Positions 13,536 through 27,510 of a stretch of 40,826 nucleotides of DNA are shown piece after piece. A program made the translations under genes and the position numbers. The notes under the pieces are model-generated. The model saw nothing but the letters and a program-made list of their open reading frames with translations. It had not been told where the DNA came from and did not search any database. Location: NCBI GenBank assembly GCA_944372055.1, contig CALVYF010000009.1, forward strand, positions 1-40,826, in the 5' to 3' direction. Positions within the stretch are counted from its first letter, which is position 1. Each line of letters starts with the position of its first letter. The DNA comes from an uncultured Bacilli bacterium. Its GTDB lineage: Bacteria; Bacillota_I; Bacilli_A; RF39; UBA660.

Positions 13536-13580
13536 GATAACATAGGATAACTATAAAAGAATAAAAAGTGAGGGATGAAA

Positions 13581-15035
13581 ATGCAAGATCAGAATAAAGA
13601 TGAAGTTGTATATCTATATCTAGATGATATTATACCAAACAGGTTTCAACCTCGCGAAGTATTTGATGAAAGAGCTTTAAAAGAACTCGCAGTATCCATT
13701 AAAGAACATGGTGTAATACAACCAATTATAGTGCGAAACGTAAACGGGAAATATGAAATTATTGCCGGAGAAAGAAGATATAAAGCATCAGCTATGGCAG
13801 GATTAACAAAAATACCTGCAATAATTAGAAACTTAGATGATAAAGAAAGTTCCAAAGTTGCTTTACTTGAAAATTTACAAAGAAGAAATTTAAATCCCAT
13901 TGAAGAAGCAAGAACTTATCAAAAAATATTAGAGTTAGATCAGATGACTCAAGAAGAATTAGCTAAGACCATGGGAAAGAGTCAATCAGCAGTAGCTAAT
14001 AAAATAAGACTATTAGGACTTTCAGATGAAGTACAAGATGCCCTACTAAAAGAACAGATATCTGAGCGACATGCAAGAACTTTATTAAATATTCCAGATG
14101 CAAAAAAACAAAAAGAAATGTTAAAAAAAGTAATAAATGAGAGAATGACAGTTCGTCAACTAGAAGCAGAAATAAAAAAAATGTACCCAAGGGAGGAGGG
14201 AGAGCCAATGAATGATACATCCACACCAATAACATCAACAGCTTTTGTGAATAGCAGTCCGTTAATGCCAACAGCAGACCTACCAGAAGATAAATCAGAT
14301 TATGGTCAAATAAAAATAGCTCCGCCAACCGAAACAGAAGGTGAACACCAGCCAAGATTTATAAATTATGGAGAAATAAAAGATGATGAAGAAGATGACG
14401 ATGAAACACCAGTAGGTGGTATAAATCTAAACAGTACACAGTCTATTCCTAATATCCAAAGTATTAAAGAAAATGCTGTTGACATTAATACACCACAGGC
14501 TCAACCAACAGCAGATTTAGACAGTCTTTTAAATATAACAGCAGCATCATCCAGTAATTCAAATCAAGAAGAAAATTATAGATTTATTACTCCAGCGGAA
14601 GAAATTGTAAAAACAGATGCAAGTAAAGCCAACAAAGTAAAAACAGAAGATTATTTTAAAACACCAGACTTAATTCCTGTAGATTTACCAAATGAAGTGC
14701 AATCTACAAAAGAGACAAACTCTGTTCCTATAGCAGAAATAGAAGCAAAATCCAAACAACAGCAAAAACCAACAGAATCAACGGTTCTACACGATTCAAG
14801 ATATGATCAAAAAACCTTAAATAATACAAATCTAAATACAACATTATTTGGTGATGTTCAAAGACCAGATTTTAACTCGAAAAAAAGTGATCAATTCACT
14901 GTTCAACAATCCATTGATATGGTAAGAAACTTAGTAGAAGAATTAAATAGACATGGAGTAAAAGCAGATATTGATGAAATGAATTTCTCAAAATCATATC
15001 AAATTATTATAAAATTAGATAAGACAGCAGAGTAA
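13581..15035 (+). CDS. noc: Noc-type nucleoid occlusion protein (ParB paralogue) with long disordered insert
   Basis: 484 residues, against about 283 in B. subtilis Noc. The N-terminal ParB/CTPase fold has DIIPNRFQPREVF near residue 16, IAGERRYKA near 56 and LLENLQRRNLNPIEEA near 94. The helix-turn-helix GKSQSAVANKIRLL near 133 resembles Noc (GKGQSTIANKLRLL) more than Spo0J. The last 45 residues (SIDMVRNLVEELNRHGVKAD and on) align with the Noc C-terminal dimer domain. Residues about 205-435 form an acidic, S/T/N/Q-rich, probably unfolded insert. The amphipathic N-terminal helix of B. subtilis Noc is absent: the protein begins directly at MQDQNKDEVVYLYLDD. The ATG at 13581 is chosen because GAGGG would abut the ATG at 13575. 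A promoter and a terminator make it a single-gene unit. Confidence 0.88.
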   Translation: MQDQNKDEVVYLYLDDIIPNRFQPREVFDERALKELAVSIKEHGVIQPIIVRNVNGKYEIIAGERRYKASAMAGLTKIPAIIRNLDDKESSKVALLENLQRRNLNPIEEARTYQKILELDQMTQEELAKTMGKSQSAVANKIRLLGLSDEVQDALLKEQISERHARTLLNIPDAKKQKEMLKKVINERMTVRQLEAEIKKMYPREEGEPMNDTSTPITSTAFVNSSPLMPTADLPEDKSDYGQIKIAPPTETEGEHQPRFINYGEIKDDEEDDDETPVGGINLNSTQSIPNIQSIKENAVDINTPQAQPTADLDSLLNITAASSSNSNQEENYRFITPAEEIVKTDASKANKVKTEDYFKTPDLIPVDLPNEVQSTKETNSVPIAEIEAKSKQQQKPTESTVLHDSRYDQKTLNNTNLNTTLFGDVQRPDFNSKKSDQFTVQQSIDMVRNLVEELNRHGVKADIDEMNFSKSYQIIIKLDKTAE

Positions 15036-15134: not shown

Positions 15135-15920
15135 ATGGGAAAGGTGATATCTTTAGTAAATCAAAAAGGTGGAGTAGGAAAGACAACAACTAGTATCAAT
15201 CTTTCTGCATCATTAGCAGTACTAGGAAAAAAAGTATTATTAATAGATTTAGATCCACAGGGAAACACAACTACAGGAGTAGGTATAAATAAAGGTGATA
15301 TTGAAAGAAGTGTCTATGATGTTTTAATTGGTGAATGTAAAATTTCAGAGGCTATGATTAAAACTAAATATAAAAATTTATATGTTTTACCAGCAACAAT
15401 TAATCTAGCAGGATTAGATATAGAATTAGTAGAAAAAAGTAAACAAGAGTCAGGATTTTTAAAAGGAGAACAATTAAAAATACATTTAACCGACATAAAA
15501 GATAGTTTTGACTATATTATTATAGATTGCCCTCCTTCTTTAGGAGTAATTACCACAAATGCTTTAACAGCTTCAAATTCAGTAATCATTCCTGTTCAAT
15601 GTGAATTCTTTGCATTAGAAGGTATTACCCAATTATTAAAAACAATTATGCTAGCTCAAAAAAGTCTAAATCCAACATTAGATATAGAAGGAGTACTATT
15701 AACAATGCTAGATTCTAGAACAAATCTAGGATTTGAAGTAGTAGAAGATATAAGAAAATTTTTCAAGGAAAAAGTTTATAATACAATAATTCCAAGACTA
15801 GTTCGGTTGACAGAGGCTCCTTCACATGGAGAACCCATTATTGCATATGATCCAAAAAGTCGTGGAAGTGAAGCTTACTTAAATCTAGCAAAGGAAGTGA
15901 TTGAAAGAAATGGAAAATAA
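15135..15920 (+). CDS. soj: Chromosome partitioning ATPase Soj (ParA)
   Basis: 261 residues. The deviant Walker A KGGVGKTTTS (residues 11-20) with a signature lysine, the DLDPQGNTTTGVG motif near 40 and IIIDCPPSLGVITTNAL near 121 define ParA. It binds DNA nonspecifically as an ATP dimer, moves origins and modulates DnaA. The ATG at 15135 follows CAGGTGAT; the GTG at 15126 is inside that ribosome site and is rejected. The gene overlaps spo0J by about 11 bases, so the two are coupled. Confidence 0.95.
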   Translation: MGKVISLVNQKGGVGKTTTSINLSASLAVLGKKVLLIDLDPQGNTTTGVGINKGDIERSVYDVLIGECKISEAMIKTKYKNLYVLPATINLAGLDIELVEKSKQESGFLKGEQLKIHLTDIKDSFDYIIIDCPPSLGVITTNALTASNSVIIPVQCEFFALEGITQLLKTIMLAQKSLNPTLDIEGVLLTMLDSRTNLGFEVVEDIRKFFKEKVYNTIIPRLVRLTEAPSHGEPIIAYDPKSRGSEAYLNLAKEVIERNGK

Positions 15921-16800
15921 TAAACGTAGGGCATTAGGAAGAGGATTGGAAGAACTGTTTTATAACGAACCAATAGCTTATGATAAAATGGAAGAAAAAA
16001 TCTTGACAGAAACACCAAAAGAAGAAATCACAAATGTAAAAATTTCTGAATTAAGAAGCAATCCATATCAACCAAGACAAGTATTTAAAAAAGAAGCTTT
16101 ACAAGAATTAGCAGATTCTATTAAAGAACATGGAGTCTTTCAACCAATTATTATTAAAAAAAGTATTAAAGGTTATGAAATTATTGCAGGTGAACGTCGT
16201 GTAAAAGCTTCTCAAATGGCTGGATTAGAAGAGATTCCTGCTATTATTAGAGATTTTACAGATGAGGAAATGATGGAAATTGCTCTTTTAGAAAACTTGC
16301 AGAGGGAAAACTTAAACCCTATTGAAGAATCACGTGCTTATAAAAAATTAATCGAAACCTTAAATATTACCCAAGAAGAATTAGCAAAGAAATTAGGAAA
16401 AAGTAGAAGTTATATAACAAATATGATAGGATTACAAACATTACCAGATTCAATTCAAGACCTGATATCAGATAACAAGATGAGCATGGGCCACGCAAGA
16501 GTATTAAGTAAGCTAGAAAATGAACACCAGCAAAAAGAATTAGCAGAAAAAATAATTAATGATGGAATGAGTGTTCGCGAGTTAGAAAATTTAACTAAAT
16601 CTACAGATGAATTTGAAAGAACTCATAAAATCAAAAAACATAATTCTCCAGTAAATCAATATCAATATTTGGAAGATGAATTGTGTGATAAACTAGGAAC
16701 AAAAGTAAAAATTAAAACTAACAAAATTGAAATTAGTTTTGTTAATGGAAATGATTTAAATCGTTTACTTGAAATTATGAATTTAGATACAAGGGGGTAA
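15910..16800 (+). CDS. parB: Chromosome partitioning protein Spo0J (ParB)
   Basis: 296 residues. It opens with the N-terminal motif RRALGRGLEELF, which stimulates ParA in relatives. It then has LRSNPYQPRQVF near 49, IAGERRVKASQMAG near 94, LLENLQRENLNPIEES near 132 and the ParB-type helix-turn-helix GKSRSYITNMIGLQTLP near 164. The C-terminal dimer domain ends NGNDLNRLLEIMNL. It is a CTP-dependent DNA clamp that loads at parS and recruits SMC. ATG at 15910 is used; TTG at 15901, closer to AAGGAAG, is possible and would add three residues. No parS site was seen in the window. Confidence 0.95.
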   Translation: MENNKRRALGRGLEELFYNEPIAYDKMEEKILTETPKEEITNVKISELRSNPYQPRQVFKKEALQELADSIKEHGVFQPIIIKKSIKGYEIIAGERRVKASQMAGLEEIPAIIRDFTDEEMMEIALLENLQRENLNPIEESRAYKKLIETLNITQEELAKKLGKSRSYITNMIGLQTLPDSIQDLISDNKMSMGHARVLSKLENEHQQKELAEKIINDGMSVRELENLTKSTDEFERTHKIKKHNSPVNQYQYLEDELCDKLGTKVKIKTNKIEISFVNGNDLNRLLEIMNLDTRG

Positions 16801-21208: not shown

Positions 21209-22003
21209 ATGCAAAAATATCAATTAATCATATTTGAAACAAATAGAAAAGATGGATGTATGAGTTTAGCAGAGAAATTTTATCCTGAAAACTATACAGA
21301 ACAAGATAGAAGAAATGAATTATCGAAAGTTAAAGATAAGATTGGAAAAAAATACAATTTTAATGGAAAAAATATAACTCAACCACAACAAAAAGATGTA
21401 GAAAAAAATATAGAGTATCCAGATGGCACCTACATTAAAATACAAAAAGAAAATCTATTACAAGAAGATCATTGGTATGAAAAACTACCATGTGATATTC
21501 TTCTAATCGATAGTCAAAATCCTAACATCGTGATAGGACACAGAATGGCAGACTGTCCAATCGTAATTGCAGAAGATACAAAAAAACAAGTTGCAGCAGT
21601 TTCACACTGTGGTGCTAAACAAATTAATAGGGGAGTTCCAAGATGGACAGTAGAAGCTTTAAAGAAAGAAGTAAATAGTAACCCAGAAGATATACATATC
21701 TACATAGGAAGTTGTATAAAAAAAGAAAACTACCAATATGATAAATATCCAGCCTGGGCTACGAATCAAGAAGTGTGGAAAGAATGTATTACCAAAAAAG
21801 GAGATATTTATTATATAGATTTAATAAAGGCAATCAAAAAACAACTAGCTAAAGAAAAGATAAAAATAGAAAATATAAAAGAAAGCCCTATAGATACATA
21901 TACCAATAAAGATTATTATTCCCATACAGAGGAAGTACGAGATAAAACAAAAAATATAGGACAAAACTTTGTAGGATGTTTTTATCAAAGTATAGAAAAA
22001 TAA
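21209..22003 (+). CDS. Divergent laccase-domain protein (YfiH/PgeF-like)
   Basis: 264 residues. The middle part, IVIGHRMADCPIVIAEDTKK near residue 108 followed by QVAAVSHCGAKQINRG, and GSCIKKENYQY near 168, follow the order of the YfiH family (ADC, HAGWRG, then GPxIGxCCYE). Family members are peptidoglycan-editing factors or purine nucleoside-active zinc enzymes. Two ligand regions differ here: the usual QVHG motif appears as QKEN and HAGW as HCGA, so the metal site may be altered or lost. The first 80 residues do not match the family well. It follows ychF by 18 bases. Confidence 0.7.
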   Translation: MQKYQLIIFETNRKDGCMSLAEKFYPENYTEQDRRNELSKVKDKIGKKYNFNGKNITQPQQKDVEKNIEYPDGTYIKIQKENLLQEDHWYEKLPCDILLIDSQNPNIVIGHRMADCPIVIAEDTKKQVAAVSHCGAKQINRGVPRWTVEALKKEVNSNPEDIHIYIGSCIKKENYQYDKYPAWATNQEVWKECITKKGDIYYIDLIKAIKKQLAKEKIKIENIKESPIDTYTNKDYYSHTEEVRDKTKNIGQNFVGCFYQSIEK

Positions 22004-22928: not shown

Positions 22929-23144
22929 ATGGCAGAATTTGGACGCAGAAAGAAAAAAGTATGTATGATGTGTACTGGTGCAACAGTTGACTATAAAAAT
23001 CCTGAAACTTTAAAAAGATACGTAAATGAAAAAGGTAAAATTGTTTCAAGAAGAGTAACTGGTAACTGTGCTCGTCATCAAAGATATATTTCAACACAAA
23101 TTAAAAGAGCAAGAGCAATCGCTTTGATGCCTTATACAAGATAA
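22929..23144 (+). CDS. rpsR: 30S ribosomal protein S18, zinc-binding form
   Basis: 71 residues with the S18 core [20 protein letters not shown] followed by RRVTGNC and [20 protein letters not shown]. It keeps CMMC near the N-terminus and NCARH later, the cysteine/histidine set of zinc-containing (C+) S18. The ATG at 22929 follows AAAGGAGGAATAAAA; a longer in-frame start at 22893 inside ssb has no support. Confidence 0.96.
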
Positions 23145-23150
23145 TAAATT

Positions 23151-23175
23151 GAGTTCTTCTAGGAGCTCTTTTTTA
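23151..23175 (+). terminator. Terminator after rpsR
   Basis: GAGTTC (23151-23156) pairs with GAGCTC (23163-23168), one G-U pair, around TTCTAG, followed by a T run. Confidence 0.8.
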
Positions 23176-23176
23176 T

Positions 23177-23205
23177 TTTACAAACAATAGAAAGTATTAT
23201 ATAAT
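23177..23205 (+). promoter_or_regulatory. Promoter of the DHH gene-rplI-dnaB unit
   Basis: TTTACA (23177-23182), a 17-base spacer and TATAAT (23200-23205). Confidence 0.75.
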
Positions 23206-23231: not shown

Positions 23232-24221
23232 ATGAAAATTATAGAGCAAAGAAAAGAACTTAATAAACGGATTAAAAGAGCAAAAGTCATCTTTTTAATG
23301 GCACATAAAGACATAGATTTAGATGCTTTAGGAAGTTGTATAGGGTTAAGTTTGATTTTAAAAGAAAGAAAAAAAACTTGTTATATAATTATAGATGATA
23401 AAGAACACGAATTAGGTGTCGAAAAAATATTAAAAGAATTAGATGGATGTATTCCAATAATAAGAGGAGAAGATATTGATAAATATATTTATCCTAATAA
23501 TAAAAGAAATCTTTTAATAGTTTTAGATACAAATAAAACAGAACTAGTTCAAAACAAAGAAATTTTAAAGAAAATAGATCAAAAAGTAATTATTGATCAT
23601 CACGATTTAGGGAAAACAACTATCAAAGATGCATTTGTTATTCAAGATGATGAAGTATCAAGTACGTGTGAAATGATTACAGAATTAACAGAATTTTACG
23701 ATGTAGAACTAGATCCATATTATGCAACAGTACTATTATCAGGAATAGTATTAGATACTAATAATTTTACTTTAAAAACAAGTGCAGAAACTTATTATGC
23801 AGCATATTATTTGGCTAATTTAGGGGCTAGTGCTAAAAAAGTTCAATATTTATTAAAGCAGGAAGTAGAAGAATATACAGAAAGGCAGAAATTATTAACC
23901 GATATAGAAACAATTAATAAAAAAATAGCTTTTACAAAAGCCAGTCCATACACGATATATCGCCGAGAAGATTTAGCGAAAGTGGCAGATACACTCCTTT
24001 TCTTTAATAATATTGAGGCCTCTTTTGTAATAGGTAAAATTGGAAAAGATACTATAGGAATCAGTGCTAGAAGCTTAGGAAACTTTAATATATCAAAAAT
24101 TTTAGAAAGCTTAGGTGGCGGCGGTGATGACTATAACGGTGCTGCTAGGTTTGAAAAAACGACAATTAGTAAAGTAGAACAAGAATTAAAAAAGGTAATT
24201 GCAAAAGAAATGGGTGAATAA
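23232..24221 (+). CDS. DHH-DHHA1 phosphodiesterase in the gdpP position, without membrane, PAS or GGDEF domains
   Basis: 329 residues. DHH motifs are AHKDIDLDALGSCIGLSLIL near residue 24, LIVLDTNKTEL near 95, VIIDHHDLG (D122-H124) and LLSGIVLDTNNFTLKT near 172. The DHHA1 end has SARSLGNFNISKILESLGGG then GDDYNGAARF (295-305). GdpP, the c-di-AMP phosphodiesterase of Bacilli, lies between rpsR and rplI, as this gene does, but is about 650 residues with two membrane helices, PAS and GGDEF. Here only the catalytic part remains, as in Pde2 or NrnA. The GGGGH motif of GdpP reads GGGGD, so the conserved histidine is Asp299. Likely substrates are c-di-AMP or short linear dinucleotides; this is inference. 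Confidence 0.85.
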   Translation: MKIIEQRKELNKRIKRAKVIFLMAHKDIDLDALGSCIGLSLILKERKKTCYIIIDDKEHELGVEKILKELDGCIPIIRGEDIDKYIYPNNKRNLLIVLDTNKTELVQNKEILKKIDQKVIIDHHDLGKTTIKDAFVIQDDEVSSTCEMITELTEFYDVELDPYYATVLLSGIVLDTNNFTLKTSAETYYAAYYLANLGASAKKVQYLLKQEVEEYTERQKLLTDIETINKKIAFTKASPYTIYRREDLAKVADTLLFFNNIEASFVIGKIGKDTIGISARSLGNFNISKILESLGGGGDDYNGAARFEKTTISKVEQELKKVIAKEMGE

Positions 24222-24222
24222 A

Positions 24223-24663
24223 ATGGAAGTAATATTTATTAAAGATTTAAAAAACCAAGGAAAAAAAGGAGAAATAAAAAAAGTAAAGGATGGTTATGCA
24301 GAGAACTTTTTAATTAAAAATGGCTATGCAGTAATCAAAAATAAAGAAAATATGGCAAAACTAGAAAAAGAAAAGCAAGCAAAAGCAGCAAGTGATGCTA
24401 AAAACAAAAAAGAAGCAGAAGAATTAAAAAAAGAATTAGATAAGTTAGTATTAGAATTCAAAGTAAAAACTGGAGAAGGAGATAAAGTCTTCGGAAGTAT
24501 TAGTATCAAACAAGTAAAAGATGCTTTGGCTAAAGAAGGATATAAGATAGAAAAAAGCCAAATAGAATTAACAACATCTATGGCAAGTTTAGGGTTCCAT
24601 CGTGTAGATATTAACTTATACCCAGGTGTAAAAGCAACAATTAAAGCTCATATCATAAAATAG
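24223..24663 (+). CDS. rplI: 50S ribosomal protein L9
   Basis: 146 residues. The N-terminal RNA-binding domain reads MEVIFIKDLKNQGKKGEIKK followed by GYAENFLIKNGYAV. A long charged helix links to the C-terminal domain with GDKVFGSISIKQV near 88. The ATG at 24223 follows GGGTGAATAA one base after the preceding stop; an earlier in-frame TTG at 24199 lies inside the DHH gene and is rejected. Confidence 0.96.
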   Translation: MEVIFIKDLKNQGKKGEIKKVKDGYAENFLIKNGYAVIKNKENMAKLEKEKQAKAASDAKNKKEAEELKKELDKLVLEFKVKTGEGDKVFGSISIKQVKDALAKEGYKIEKSQIELTTSMASLGFHRVDINLYPGVKATIKAHIIK

Positions 24664-24673
24664 AGGTGAAATA

Positions 24674-26023
24674 ATGCCATTAAAAACATTACCAAACAAC
24701 ATCGAAGCAGAAGAATCTGTATTAGGAGCGTGTTTTTTATCGAAATATGCTCTTCAAAAAGCCTGTGAAAGTTTAACTCCAGACTCTTTTTATGATGAAA
24801 AAAATGGTAAGATATTTGCTGCTATGAATGCATTAGTTGATGAGAAAACACCAATCGATATTACAACAGTAACAGGATACTTAAAGAAAAACAATCAACT
24901 AACAGAAATCGGAGGAGTAGAATACTTAACTGAAGTATTAAACTTTGTTCCAACAGCAAGCAATATTGATTATTATATAAAAAATGTAGAAGATGCATCT
25001 ATTTTAAGAAAGCTAATAGAGACAGCCACTGATATTGCATCAGAAGGATATAGAACTGATGAAACAGTAAATGAGATTTTAGATAATTCAGAAAAAAAGA
25101 TTTTAAATATTGTAAAAAATAGAAAATCAAGTGAGTTTAGATCAATAAAAGATATATTACAAAAAACACAATCGGATTTAGAAAGATTATCAGAACATAA
25201 AGGAGAAGTAACTGGACTAGCAACAGGATGGTATGACATAGACAAATTAACAACAGGTCTTCATCCTAACGAACTAATAATTATTGCCGCTCGTCCTGCC
25301 ATGGGAAAAACAGTATTTGCTTTAAATCTTGCCACCCATGCAGCTATGACACAAGATAAGTCAGTAGCCCTTTTTAACCTAGAAATGAGTGCTGAACAAT
25401 TAGCTATGCGTATTATTTCCTCATTAGGTCAAGTAGATGGATTTAAATTACGTACGGGAAATTTAATGAATACAGACTGGAAAAGAATCAATGAAGCAGT
25501 GTCCCAATTATCAAATACCAATTTAGTAATGGATGATACTCCAGGTATTACCATTGGAGAAATTAGAGCAAAATGTCGTAGACTAGCATCTAGTGAAAAA
25601 GGTTTAGCACTGGTAGTAATTGACTATTTACAGCTAATATCAGGAGGAAAAAACTACGGTGCCAATAGACAGCAAGAGGTCTCTGATATTTCAAGAAGTC
25701 TAAAGACATTAGCAATGGAATTACAAGTACCAGTAATTGCTTTATCTCAATTATCTCGTAGTGTAGAATCTCGTGAAGATAAAAGACCAATTATGAGTGA
25801 TTTACGTGAATCTGGATCTATTGAGCAAGATGCTGATATTGTAGCTTTCTTATATAGAGATGATTATTATAAAAAAGAAGCAAGAAATGAAGATAATACA
25901 AGTATAGTAGAATTAATTATAGGAAAACATCGTAATGGACCAACAGCAACCGTAGAACTATTATTTAAAAAAGATACATCAACTATGCTAAATTTAAGTA
26001 AAGGAAATAGGGGTGAAGAATAA
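24674..26023 (+). CDS. dnaB: Replicative DNA helicase DnaB (DnaC in Bacillus naming)
   Basis: 449 residues. The N-terminal domain starts LPNNIEAEESVLGACFLS. The RecA-like domain has Walker A ARPAMGKTVFALNLA near residue 206, VVIDYLQLISGG near 313 and VIALSQLSRSVESREDKRP near 350, and SDLRESGSIEQDADIVAFLY near 374. It is a normal-length hexameric helicase. It follows rplI by ten bases, as in Bacilli. Its TAA stop shares one base with the next ATG (TAATG). Confidence 0.97.
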   Translation: MPLKTLPNNIEAEESVLGACFLSKYALQKACESLTPDSFYDEKNGKIFAAMNALVDEKTPIDITTVTGYLKKNNQLTEIGGVEYLTEVLNFVPTASNIDYYIKNVEDASILRKLIETATDIASEGYRTDETVNEILDNSEKKILNIVKNRKSSEFRSIKDILQKTQSDLERLSEHKGEVTGLATGWYDIDKLTTGLHPNELIIIAARPAMGKTVFALNLATHAAMTQDKSVALFNLEMSAEQLAMRIISSLGQVDGFKLRTGNLMNTDWKRINEAVSQLSNTNLVMDDTPGITIGEIRAKCRRLASSEKGLALVVIDYLQLISGGKNYGANRQQEVSDISRSLKTLAMELQVPVIALSQLSRSVESREDKRPIMSDLRESGSIEQDADIVAFLYRDDYYKKEARNEDNTSIVELIIGKHRNGPTATVELLFKKDTSTMLNLSKGNRGEE

Positions 26024-27510
26024 TGAAAAACAAACTGACTAAGTTATTGGTAATAATGGTTTTAGGACTTACTCTTCCTTTGTTATCGGCTTATTCAACA
26101 CCAGCACCTAAAACAAGGTATCGTGTTTATCTACATGGAGAATCTATTGGATTAATTAAATCGAAAACAGAGTTAGAAAAGTATATCGATAAGAAACAAA
26201 ATCAAATAAAAGAGAAATTTGGTGTAGATAAAGTATATCTACCAGAAGACCTAGATATAGAAAAAGAAGTAACTTTTGATAATAATATTTCTAGTGTTAA
26301 AAAGATTTATAACAAGATTAAAGACATATCTCCATTTACTATCAAAGGCTATGCAATTACTATTGGAGCTGTAGATTCGCAAGCGGTTGATGGTACAAAA
26401 GTAAAAGGTAAAAAACAAACCATTTATGTATTAGATAAAAAAGTATTTGAAGAGGCAGTTGATAATATAGTTCATTCTTTTGTAGCAGAAGAGGATTATA
26501 ATAACTATGCAAAGGATACACAAGAAGAAATAAAAGATACAGGAAAAAAAGTAGATGAAATCTACATAGAAAATAAGATAACAATCAGTAAGAAAAATAT
26601 CCCTGTAGATAAAACAATCTATCAAGATACAAGTTCATTAAGTCGATATCTAATGTTTGGTACTACAAAAAGTCAACAAAAATATACAGTACAGGCAGGA
26701 GATACAATAGAACAAATATCATTTAATAATAAAATTTCAACTGAAGAATTCTTGATTGCTAACCCTAAATTTTCTAGTGCAAATACATTACTATATGCTG
26801 GGCAGACAGTAACTTTAGGAATACTAAAGCCTCAAATTAGTATTGTAGAAATTGATCATGTTGTATTTGATGAAGAAACAAATTATCAAACAGAAACACA
26901 ATATGATAACAACAAAGAAGTTGGTTATAGTGAGGTAAAACAAGCAGGTGTTAAAGGTATTACAAGAAAAACACAAAAGGTAAAGAAAATCAATGGAGCA
27001 ACAGTAGACGTAACTCCTGTCGGAAATGGTGAGGTATTAAAAGAACCAATCAATGAAATAGTAGTAAAAGGTGGTAAAAAATCTAGCTATTATGGTTATG
27101 GAGAAGCTATTGCTACTGCTGGAGAATGGGGATGGCCAGCAACATGCTCATCTGTTTCAAGCCCTTTTGGATATAGATGGGGAGTATTACATGACGGAAC
27201 AGATATTGCAGGATGTGGATATGGTTCAAATATCTTCGCAGCCCGTTCAGGAACCGTAGTACAATCATCATATAAATACGACAATGGAGAATTTATCACG
27301 ATTGACCACCATGACGGATATTATTCAATGTATGCACATATGGTATCAGGTTCAAGAAGAGTTAGAGTTGGTGACTATGTAGAAAAAGGACAGGTTATAG
27401 GAAGTATGGGAAGAACAGGAGCAGCAACAGGTGTCCACTTACACTTCTCAATTTGGCGAGGTTACCCATACCGTGGAGGAAGAGCTCTAAACGCAATGAG
27501 CTTCTACTAA
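26023..27510 (+). CDS. Secreted or membrane-anchored M23 endopeptidase with LysM and G5 domains
   Basis: 495 residues. An N-terminal hydrophobic segment (LTKLLVIMVLGLTLPLLSAY) is a signal or anchor. A LysM domain begins at KYTVQAGDTIEQISFNNKIS near residue 223. A G5 domain covers about 280-355 (VVFDEETNYQTETQYDNN onward). The peptidase M23 domain follows, with zinc ligands in LHDGTD (His near 390) and HLHFS (near 472), so the active site looks intact. Such enzymes cut peptidoglycan cross-bridges during growth or sporulation. Its coupling to dnaB and walJ suggests growth-linked expression. Confidence 0.9.
   Translation: MKNKLTKLLVIMVLGLTLPLLSAYSTPAPKTRYRVYLHGESIGLIKSKTELEKYIDKKQNQIKEKFGVDKVYLPEDLDIEKEVTFDNNISSVKKIYNKIKDISPFTIKGYAITIGAVDSQAVDGTKVKGKKQTIYVLDKKVFEEAVDNIVHSFVAEEDYNNYAKDTQEEIKDTGKKVDEIYIENKITISKKNIPVDKTIYQDTSSLSRYLMFGTTKSQQKYTVQAGDTIEQISFNNKISTEEFLIANPKFSSANTLLYAGQTVTLGILKPQISIVEIDHVVFDEETNYQTETQYDNNKEVGYSEVKQAGVKGITRKTQKVKKINGATVDVTPVGNGEVLKEPINEIVVKGGKKSSYYGYGEAIATAGEWGWPATCSSVSSPFGYRWGVLHDGTDIAGCGYGSNIFAARSGTVVQSSYKYDNGEFITIDHHDGYYSMYAHMVSGSRRVRVGDYVEKGQVIGSMGRTGAATGVHLHFSIWRGYPYRGGRALNAMSFY

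Follow-up and report, generated by a model that had tools for sequence, protein, structure and literature searches.

The window is a stretch of 40,826 nt from an uncultured Bacilli bacterium. Between rpsR and rplI, in the position usually taken by gdpP, it carries a gene for a protein of 329 aa. The features of this region are as follows.

22929–23144, + strand: rpsR, the upstream neighbour (ATG at 22929 by reading)
23151–23178, + strand: terminator-like hairpin (23151–23168) and T run after rpsR (consensus match only)
23177–23205, + strand: promoter-like site TTTACA-17-TATAAT ahead of the gdpP-place gene (11 of 12 matches; consensus match only)
23232–24221, + strand: gdpP-place gene, ATG start, stand-alone GdpP-type DHH-DHHA1 protein, 329 aa
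23289–23747, + strand: DHH domain, residues 20–172 (Pfam, over cut-off)
23595–23603, + strand: DHH triad, residues 122–124
23955–24200, + strand: DHHA1 domain, residues 242–323 (Pfam, over cut-off)
23961–23963, + strand: Arg244 codon, a candidate compensating charge (from alignment counts)
24114–24128, + strand: GGGGD motif, residues 295–299
24223–24663, + strand: rplI, the downstream neighbour, one base past the gdpP-place stop
24674–26023, + strand: next gene after rplI, which we take from its sequence to be the replicative helicase gene (dnaB/dnaC type)

The gap between rpsR and the gdpP-place gene is 87 bp. Consensus scans found one terminator-like hairpin in this gap (0.2 expected in shuffles) and 11 promoter-like sites in the region around it (7.1 expected). 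Given the hairpin after rpsR and the good promoter-like match in the gap, one transcription unit probably runs from the gdpP-place gene through rplI to the helicase gene; the gdpP-rplI-dnaB order is common across the taxonomic family. The stop-to-stop frame of the gdpP-place gene is only 337 aa, so that there is no missed N-terminal extension and no sensory part hidden upstream.

Other genes of the window were also recorded. A LysM-G5-M23 cell-wall peptidase gene (26023–27510) lies immediately 3′ of the helicase gene, as it does in relatives. A gene for a Cu-oxidase_4 (laccase-domain) protein (21209–22003) sits between ychF and rpsF; among the four fetched relatives' loci that reach ychF (L055–L058), only L057, from the same genus, has it. 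Two ParB-like genes (13575–15035 and 15901–16800) flank a ParA-like gene, the second ParB-like gene and the ParA-like gene being presumed such from their sequences. The first ParB-like protein (486 aa) has ParB_N and HTH_ParB within its first 203 residues, followed by a long remainder lacking a full Pfam match.

A GdpP-type core lacking the sensory half

Pfam found DHH and DHHA1 in the window protein and nothing else. Together with the 87-bp gap and the adjacency of rplI, this agrees with the sequence-only reading, which had placed the gene in the gdpP position, described it as DHH-DHHA1 only and noted that the membrane helices, PAS and GGDEF are missing. When the protein was compared with solved structures using phmmer, the best match was the catalytic domain of S. 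aureus GdpP (184 bits), followed by the 597-residue c-di-AMP phosphodiesterase chain 9n0l (127 bits), while NrnA chains scored 24 bits. The best NCBIfam match was the GdpP-L9 model NF011110 (PRK14538), with 185.8 bits over residues 9–326, compared to 57 bits for the NrnA model. The NF011110 score is far under the 707-bit cut-off of that model, as the window polypeptide contains neither the sensory part nor L9. An AlphaFold2 model built from 72 sequences (pLDDT 89.6, pTM 0.70) had GdpP catalytic domains as its first fold matches (Z 30.6 over 323 residues, compared to about 24 for the entries that follow), and the Foldseek TM was about 0.6. The overall rmsd was large (14.8) owing to a different placement of the two domains, such that the fold match probably holds per domain. 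In trees built with the motif column(s) omitted, the window protein grouped with GdpP, apart from NrnA. On sequence grounds, then, the window gene is a GdpP-type core, a gdpP orthologue reduced to its catalytic half.

Four DHH matches were found in the window genome, namely the gdpP-place gene, a second copy that we call paralogue B, a Mn-pyrophosphatase-like protein and NrnA, and there was no full-length GdpP among them. A full-length GdpP elsewhere in the genome, along with a place beside NrnA, would have spoken against the earlier assignment; we found neither. As the genome is 92.9% complete, relatives were also used to check for a full-length GdpP. Across the taxonomic family (58 genomes), strong GdpP-like matches had frames of about 315–407 aa. 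In the 117-genome sample two fell outside that range, one a 167-aa fragment and the other a 475-aa frame whose start-to-stop ORF is 318 aa. In other families, among the matches listed in a class-wide search, frames were 479–885 aa, the exception being a 321-aa frame in G218 that lies at the edge of its contig. GGDEF_GdpP scored over cut-off in none of the 58 family genomes; there were five weaker matches, none of them in the window genome.

Two other accounts of the short gene were considered. A split sensor encoded elsewhere is not borne out, as the GGDEF_GdpP search of the window genome was blank and the 58 genomes yielded only the five sub-cut-off matches. A private truncation or assembly error was rejected, since the relatives share both length and place, as do 80 loci of another collection. 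The recurrence of the same gene, length and place across the family means that the form of the window gene is not due to chance. Judged from these matches, the sensor-less architecture is a family-wide trait. Thus, the reduction to a catalytic core described earlier is real, but it is not special to the window gene. In a careful tree of 94 rows (columns 299–306 omitted), full-length GdpP branched between two sets of truncated rows, a placement that is weakly supported (84/21), and a tree constrained to unite the truncated rows was not significantly worse (AU p 0.52). The tree therefore allows a single truncation event. The open-licence PMC papers searched made no mention of GdpP truncation in this group, nor of GdpP proteins with an altered GGGH.

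Loss of the motif histidine and a second paralogue

The change from GGGGH to GGGGD at residues 295–299, also read earlier from the sequence, stands: all 30 outgroup rows bearing the full-length GdpP label, a set that includes the shortened L095 (contig edge) and L102, end the motif in H. Of 68 distinct gdpP-place rows, recognised by their position beside rplI, 31 have the histidine and the rest have D (26), N (5), S (4), E (1) or V (1). In a second collection none of the nearest 80 loci has H (64 D, 8 N, 4 S, 2 G, 1 T, 1 V); the two samples overlap in lineages, and these 80 loci all come from the window's branch. On the careful tree, 25 gdpP-place rows and 17 paralogue B rows form one His-loss group (support 96/95). 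Two His-less rows, L120 and L045, lie outside it and represent separate losses, and the presence or absence of the histidine requires four changes in all on the whole tree. According to this tree, the histidine loss is a trait of one supported subclade, so that the changed histidine, although real, is clade-wide and not peculiar to the window gene. One genome (G051) has the two states swapped, with GGGGS in its gdpP-place copy (L045) and GGGH kept in its B paralogue (L039).

We looked for residues that changed along with the histidine. Arg or Lys is found at position 244 in 34/37 His-less gdpP-place rows, compared to 1/31 His-bearing rows, 0/30 full-length GdpP rows and 4/22 B rows. N101, K102 and Y243 also rise in the His-less gdpP-place copies, less sharply than R/K244. 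These four columns were chosen after viewing the alignment and serve as leads only; residue 244 is a candidate for compensating the lost histidine.

The catalytic site is otherwise intact. H25, D29, D31, D99, D122, H123, H124 and D175 (the last just beyond the Pfam DHH envelope) are all present in the window DHH domain. These eight metal/DHH residues are kept in 30/30 full-length rows, 31/31 His-bearing gdpP-place rows, 36/37 His-less rows, in which the single miss is a fragment, and 22/22 B rows. R280 is kept in 37/37 His-less gdpP-place rows and 22/22 B rows, and F/Y179 in 37/37 His-less gdpP-place rows. Against five near loci, dN/dS was 0.04–0.08 (Nei-Gojobori), a rough estimate given that about 0.6 of synonymous sites differ. 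The retention of the metal/DHH residues and the low dN/dS indicate that this is not decay.

Paralogue B of the window genome (G000:C51:6227-7432) has 402 aa and the motif GGGN. It adjoins a gene that we take to be of the rodA/ftsW type. The histidine is absent from 21 of 22 B rows, the sole exception being L039. B forms one clade (100/100) nested in the His-loss group, which places the duplication after, or together with, the histidine loss. A gdpP-place copy or B was found in 58 of 117 order-level genomes. B is present in 20 of these, accompanied by a His-less gdpP-place copy in 13 and a His-bearing one in three, and alone in four; the gdpP-place copy occurs without B in 19 His-less and 19 His-bearing genomes. 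B thus accompanies His-less copies (13/32) more often than His-bearing ones (3/22; Fisher p 0.039, kinship ignored). A search with a B profile found no further genomes. We rejected an obligate A/B pair, since B is missing from 19/32 genomes whose gdpP-place copy is His-less, which makes B optional.

c-di-AMP turnover and the possible substrate

c-di-AMP needs breakdown as well as synthesis, and in model firmicutes breakdown is tied to sensors. A diadenylate cyclase, which the sequence-only reading suggested looking for, was found in the window genome as a CdaA-type protein (DAC + CdaA_N) with an adjacent YbbR/CdaR protein. This CdaA (L053:1971-2798, G000:C39) reads LHDGGVII where, as we understand it, CdaA normally has DGA; its RHR is intact. 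The genome also carries a normal, separate NrnA with GGGH. Among 117 order-level genomes, 109 have a cyclase, 115 have NrnA and 58 have a GdpP core. Given the CdaA, the YbbR/CdaR protein and the near-ubiquity of the cyclase, c-di-AMP is very likely made. Of the 32 genomes whose gdpP-place copy is His-less, four gave no cyclase match (G054, G078, G111 and G112, which are 93–95% complete); G130, a genus-mate of G054 and G112, has a cyclase. PgpH was over cut-off in none of 58 genomes, the window genome included, and under strict filters the c-di-AMP (ydaO) riboswitch RF00379 was likewise found in 0/58, B. subtilis controls being positive in both searches. An AtaC-like search (Phosphodiest Pfam) returned mostly frames of about 500 and 650–700 aa, resembling other enzymes. 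The 59 of 117 genomes with no GdpP core at all, set beside the cyclase and NrnA counts, indicate that c-di-AMP turnover in this group need not rely on a GdpP-type protein. NrnA is the obvious candidate degrader in order members lacking the core, an uncertain role given that one study reports B. subtilis NrnA to be inactive on c-di-AMP (PMC9757072).

Studies of related enzymes bear on what the histidine does. H284 of B. subtilis NrnA, in GGGH, contacts the phosphodiester backbone (PMC5593865). For a D. radiodurans RecJ-like protein, H301A is listed with other alanine changes of substrate residues that reduce activity (PMC11229311), and for the P. yayanosii pApase, which has K287 at the histidine place, K287A is described as inactive in the assay, with Km up about threefold (PMC8268124). 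We found no studied members with Asp or Asn at this place in the open-licence PMC literature. As for substrates, it is reported that the stand-alone DHH-DHHA1 enzyme PdeM of M. pneumoniae degrades c-di-AMP (PMC5508000), that S. aureus Pde2 favours pApA over c-di-AMP (PMC5207132) and that M. bovis GdpP, which has no PAS, has extra nuclease activities, nanoRNase included (PMC10720645).

We put at about 0.5 the probability that the window protein is an active phosphodiesterase derived from GdpP, sensor-less and altered at its substrate site, with c-di-AMP as its default substrate. It would be a soluble two-metal phosphodiesterase in which DHH cuts and DHHA1 binds the substrate. Since it has neither membrane helices nor PAS and GGDEF domains, its activity would not be set by those inputs, and this loss of regulation would leave it dependent on expression and substrate level, likely with a transcription start of its own shared with rplI. 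The subclade has lost the GGGGH histidine, which touches the substrate backbone in related enzymes, while Arg/Lys244, Asn101, Lys102 and Tyr243 became common in its gdpP-place copies. Most likely, the protein would still cleave an adenine dinucleotide, gripping it differently; the default would be c-di-AMP, cut to pApA, which NrnA would then finish. Against this explanation, an acidic residue at the histidine place should repel phosphate, activity falls in relatives when this residue is changed (D. radiodurans H301A, P. yayanosii K287A), 59 of 117 order-level genomes do without a GdpP core, and a cyclase match is missing from four genomes that carry a His-less gdpP-place copy.

A doubtful though serious alternative is that the His-less subclade is active but has a main substrate other than c-di-AMP, for example a nucleotide or nucleotide conjugate without a phosphate where the histidine made contact, with NrnA handling both c-di-AMP and pApA. 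The confinement of the loss largely to one group (25 gdpP-place and 17 B rows, 96/95) with a duplication inside, the near-fixation of N101, K102, Y192, Q210, Y243 and R244 in the His-less gdpP-place copies, and the half of the order that has a cyclase and no GdpP core all fit such a change. However, D, N, S, G, T, V or E now stands where the histidine was, which resembles released constraint more than a newly gained contact of a specific kind; R280 and F/Y179 persist in 37/37; and the neighbours are ribosomal and replication genes, with no genomic partner hinting at another nucleotide. More speculative still is a wider scenario in which a GdpP lineage lost its sensor half, then its histidine, and duplicated to give two-paralogue phosphodiesterases whose nucleotide signal is not c-di-AMP, within an order half of which has no GdpP core.

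The sequence-only reading had also raised a shift to short linear nucleotides, which would make the protein an NrnA/Pde2-like enzyme acting on pApA and short RNA. It does share the stand-alone architecture of NrnA, and the nanoRNase activity described for M. bovis GdpP (PMC10720645) makes such a shift conceivable, but the trees place it with GdpP, and a separate NrnA exists in 115/117 genomes, including this one. Moreover, NrnA enzymes retain GGGH (PMC5593865; 3/3 NrnA rows in our alignment), and the NrnA of the window genome is normal, so that the histidine loss lends nothing to this idea, which we consider improbable. That both paralogues have lost a residue contacting the substrate, and that B is commoner alongside His-less copies (a comparison ignoring kinship), would suit a catalytically dead or purely regulatory protein, such as a c-di-AMP binder or a partner of B. 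With all metal ligands retained, dN/dS of 0.04–0.08 and 19/32 His-less genomes doing without B, we regard this as very improbable. An active phosphodiesterase, by default on c-di-AMP, is the reading that we prefer.

These observations concern a large uncultured group with a cyclase in 109/117 genomes, PgpH in 0/58, no full-length GdpP found and a GdpP core in 58/117, and they raise the question of which enzyme degrades c-di-AMP in the order members without the core. The subclade also offers a natural series of GGGGH, GGGGD, GGGGN and GGGGS motifs, along with two paralogues, on intact metal sites, so that the part played by the GGGH histidine in choosing the substrate can be put to a direct test.

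Among known systems, GdpP (YybT) is the closest: it shares the DHH-DHHA1 core, the best sequence and fold match, the place beside rplI and all metal/DHH residues. It differs in having about 650 aa, transmembrane helices, PAS, GGDEF and GGGGH, whereas the window protein has 329 aa, none of those parts and GGGGD. Frames of about 810–885 aa in related families fit, by length alone, GdpP-L9 fusions of the NF011110 kind. PdeM of M. pneumoniae and Pde2 of S. pneumoniae are, like the window protein, stand-alone cores, and are linked to c-di-AMP/pApA turnover; the M. pneumoniae proteins are described as Pde2-like rather than GdpP-like in PMC5508000, while the window protein resembles GdpP. Mycoplasma bovis GdpP has a reduced sensory part too, lacking PAS, but unlike the window protein it has 666 aa and retains a membrane part and a GGDEF-like region (PMC10720645). 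The archaeal pApase of P. yayanosii also carries a natural replacement of the GGGH histidine, but by Lys, which is still positive (PMC8268124).
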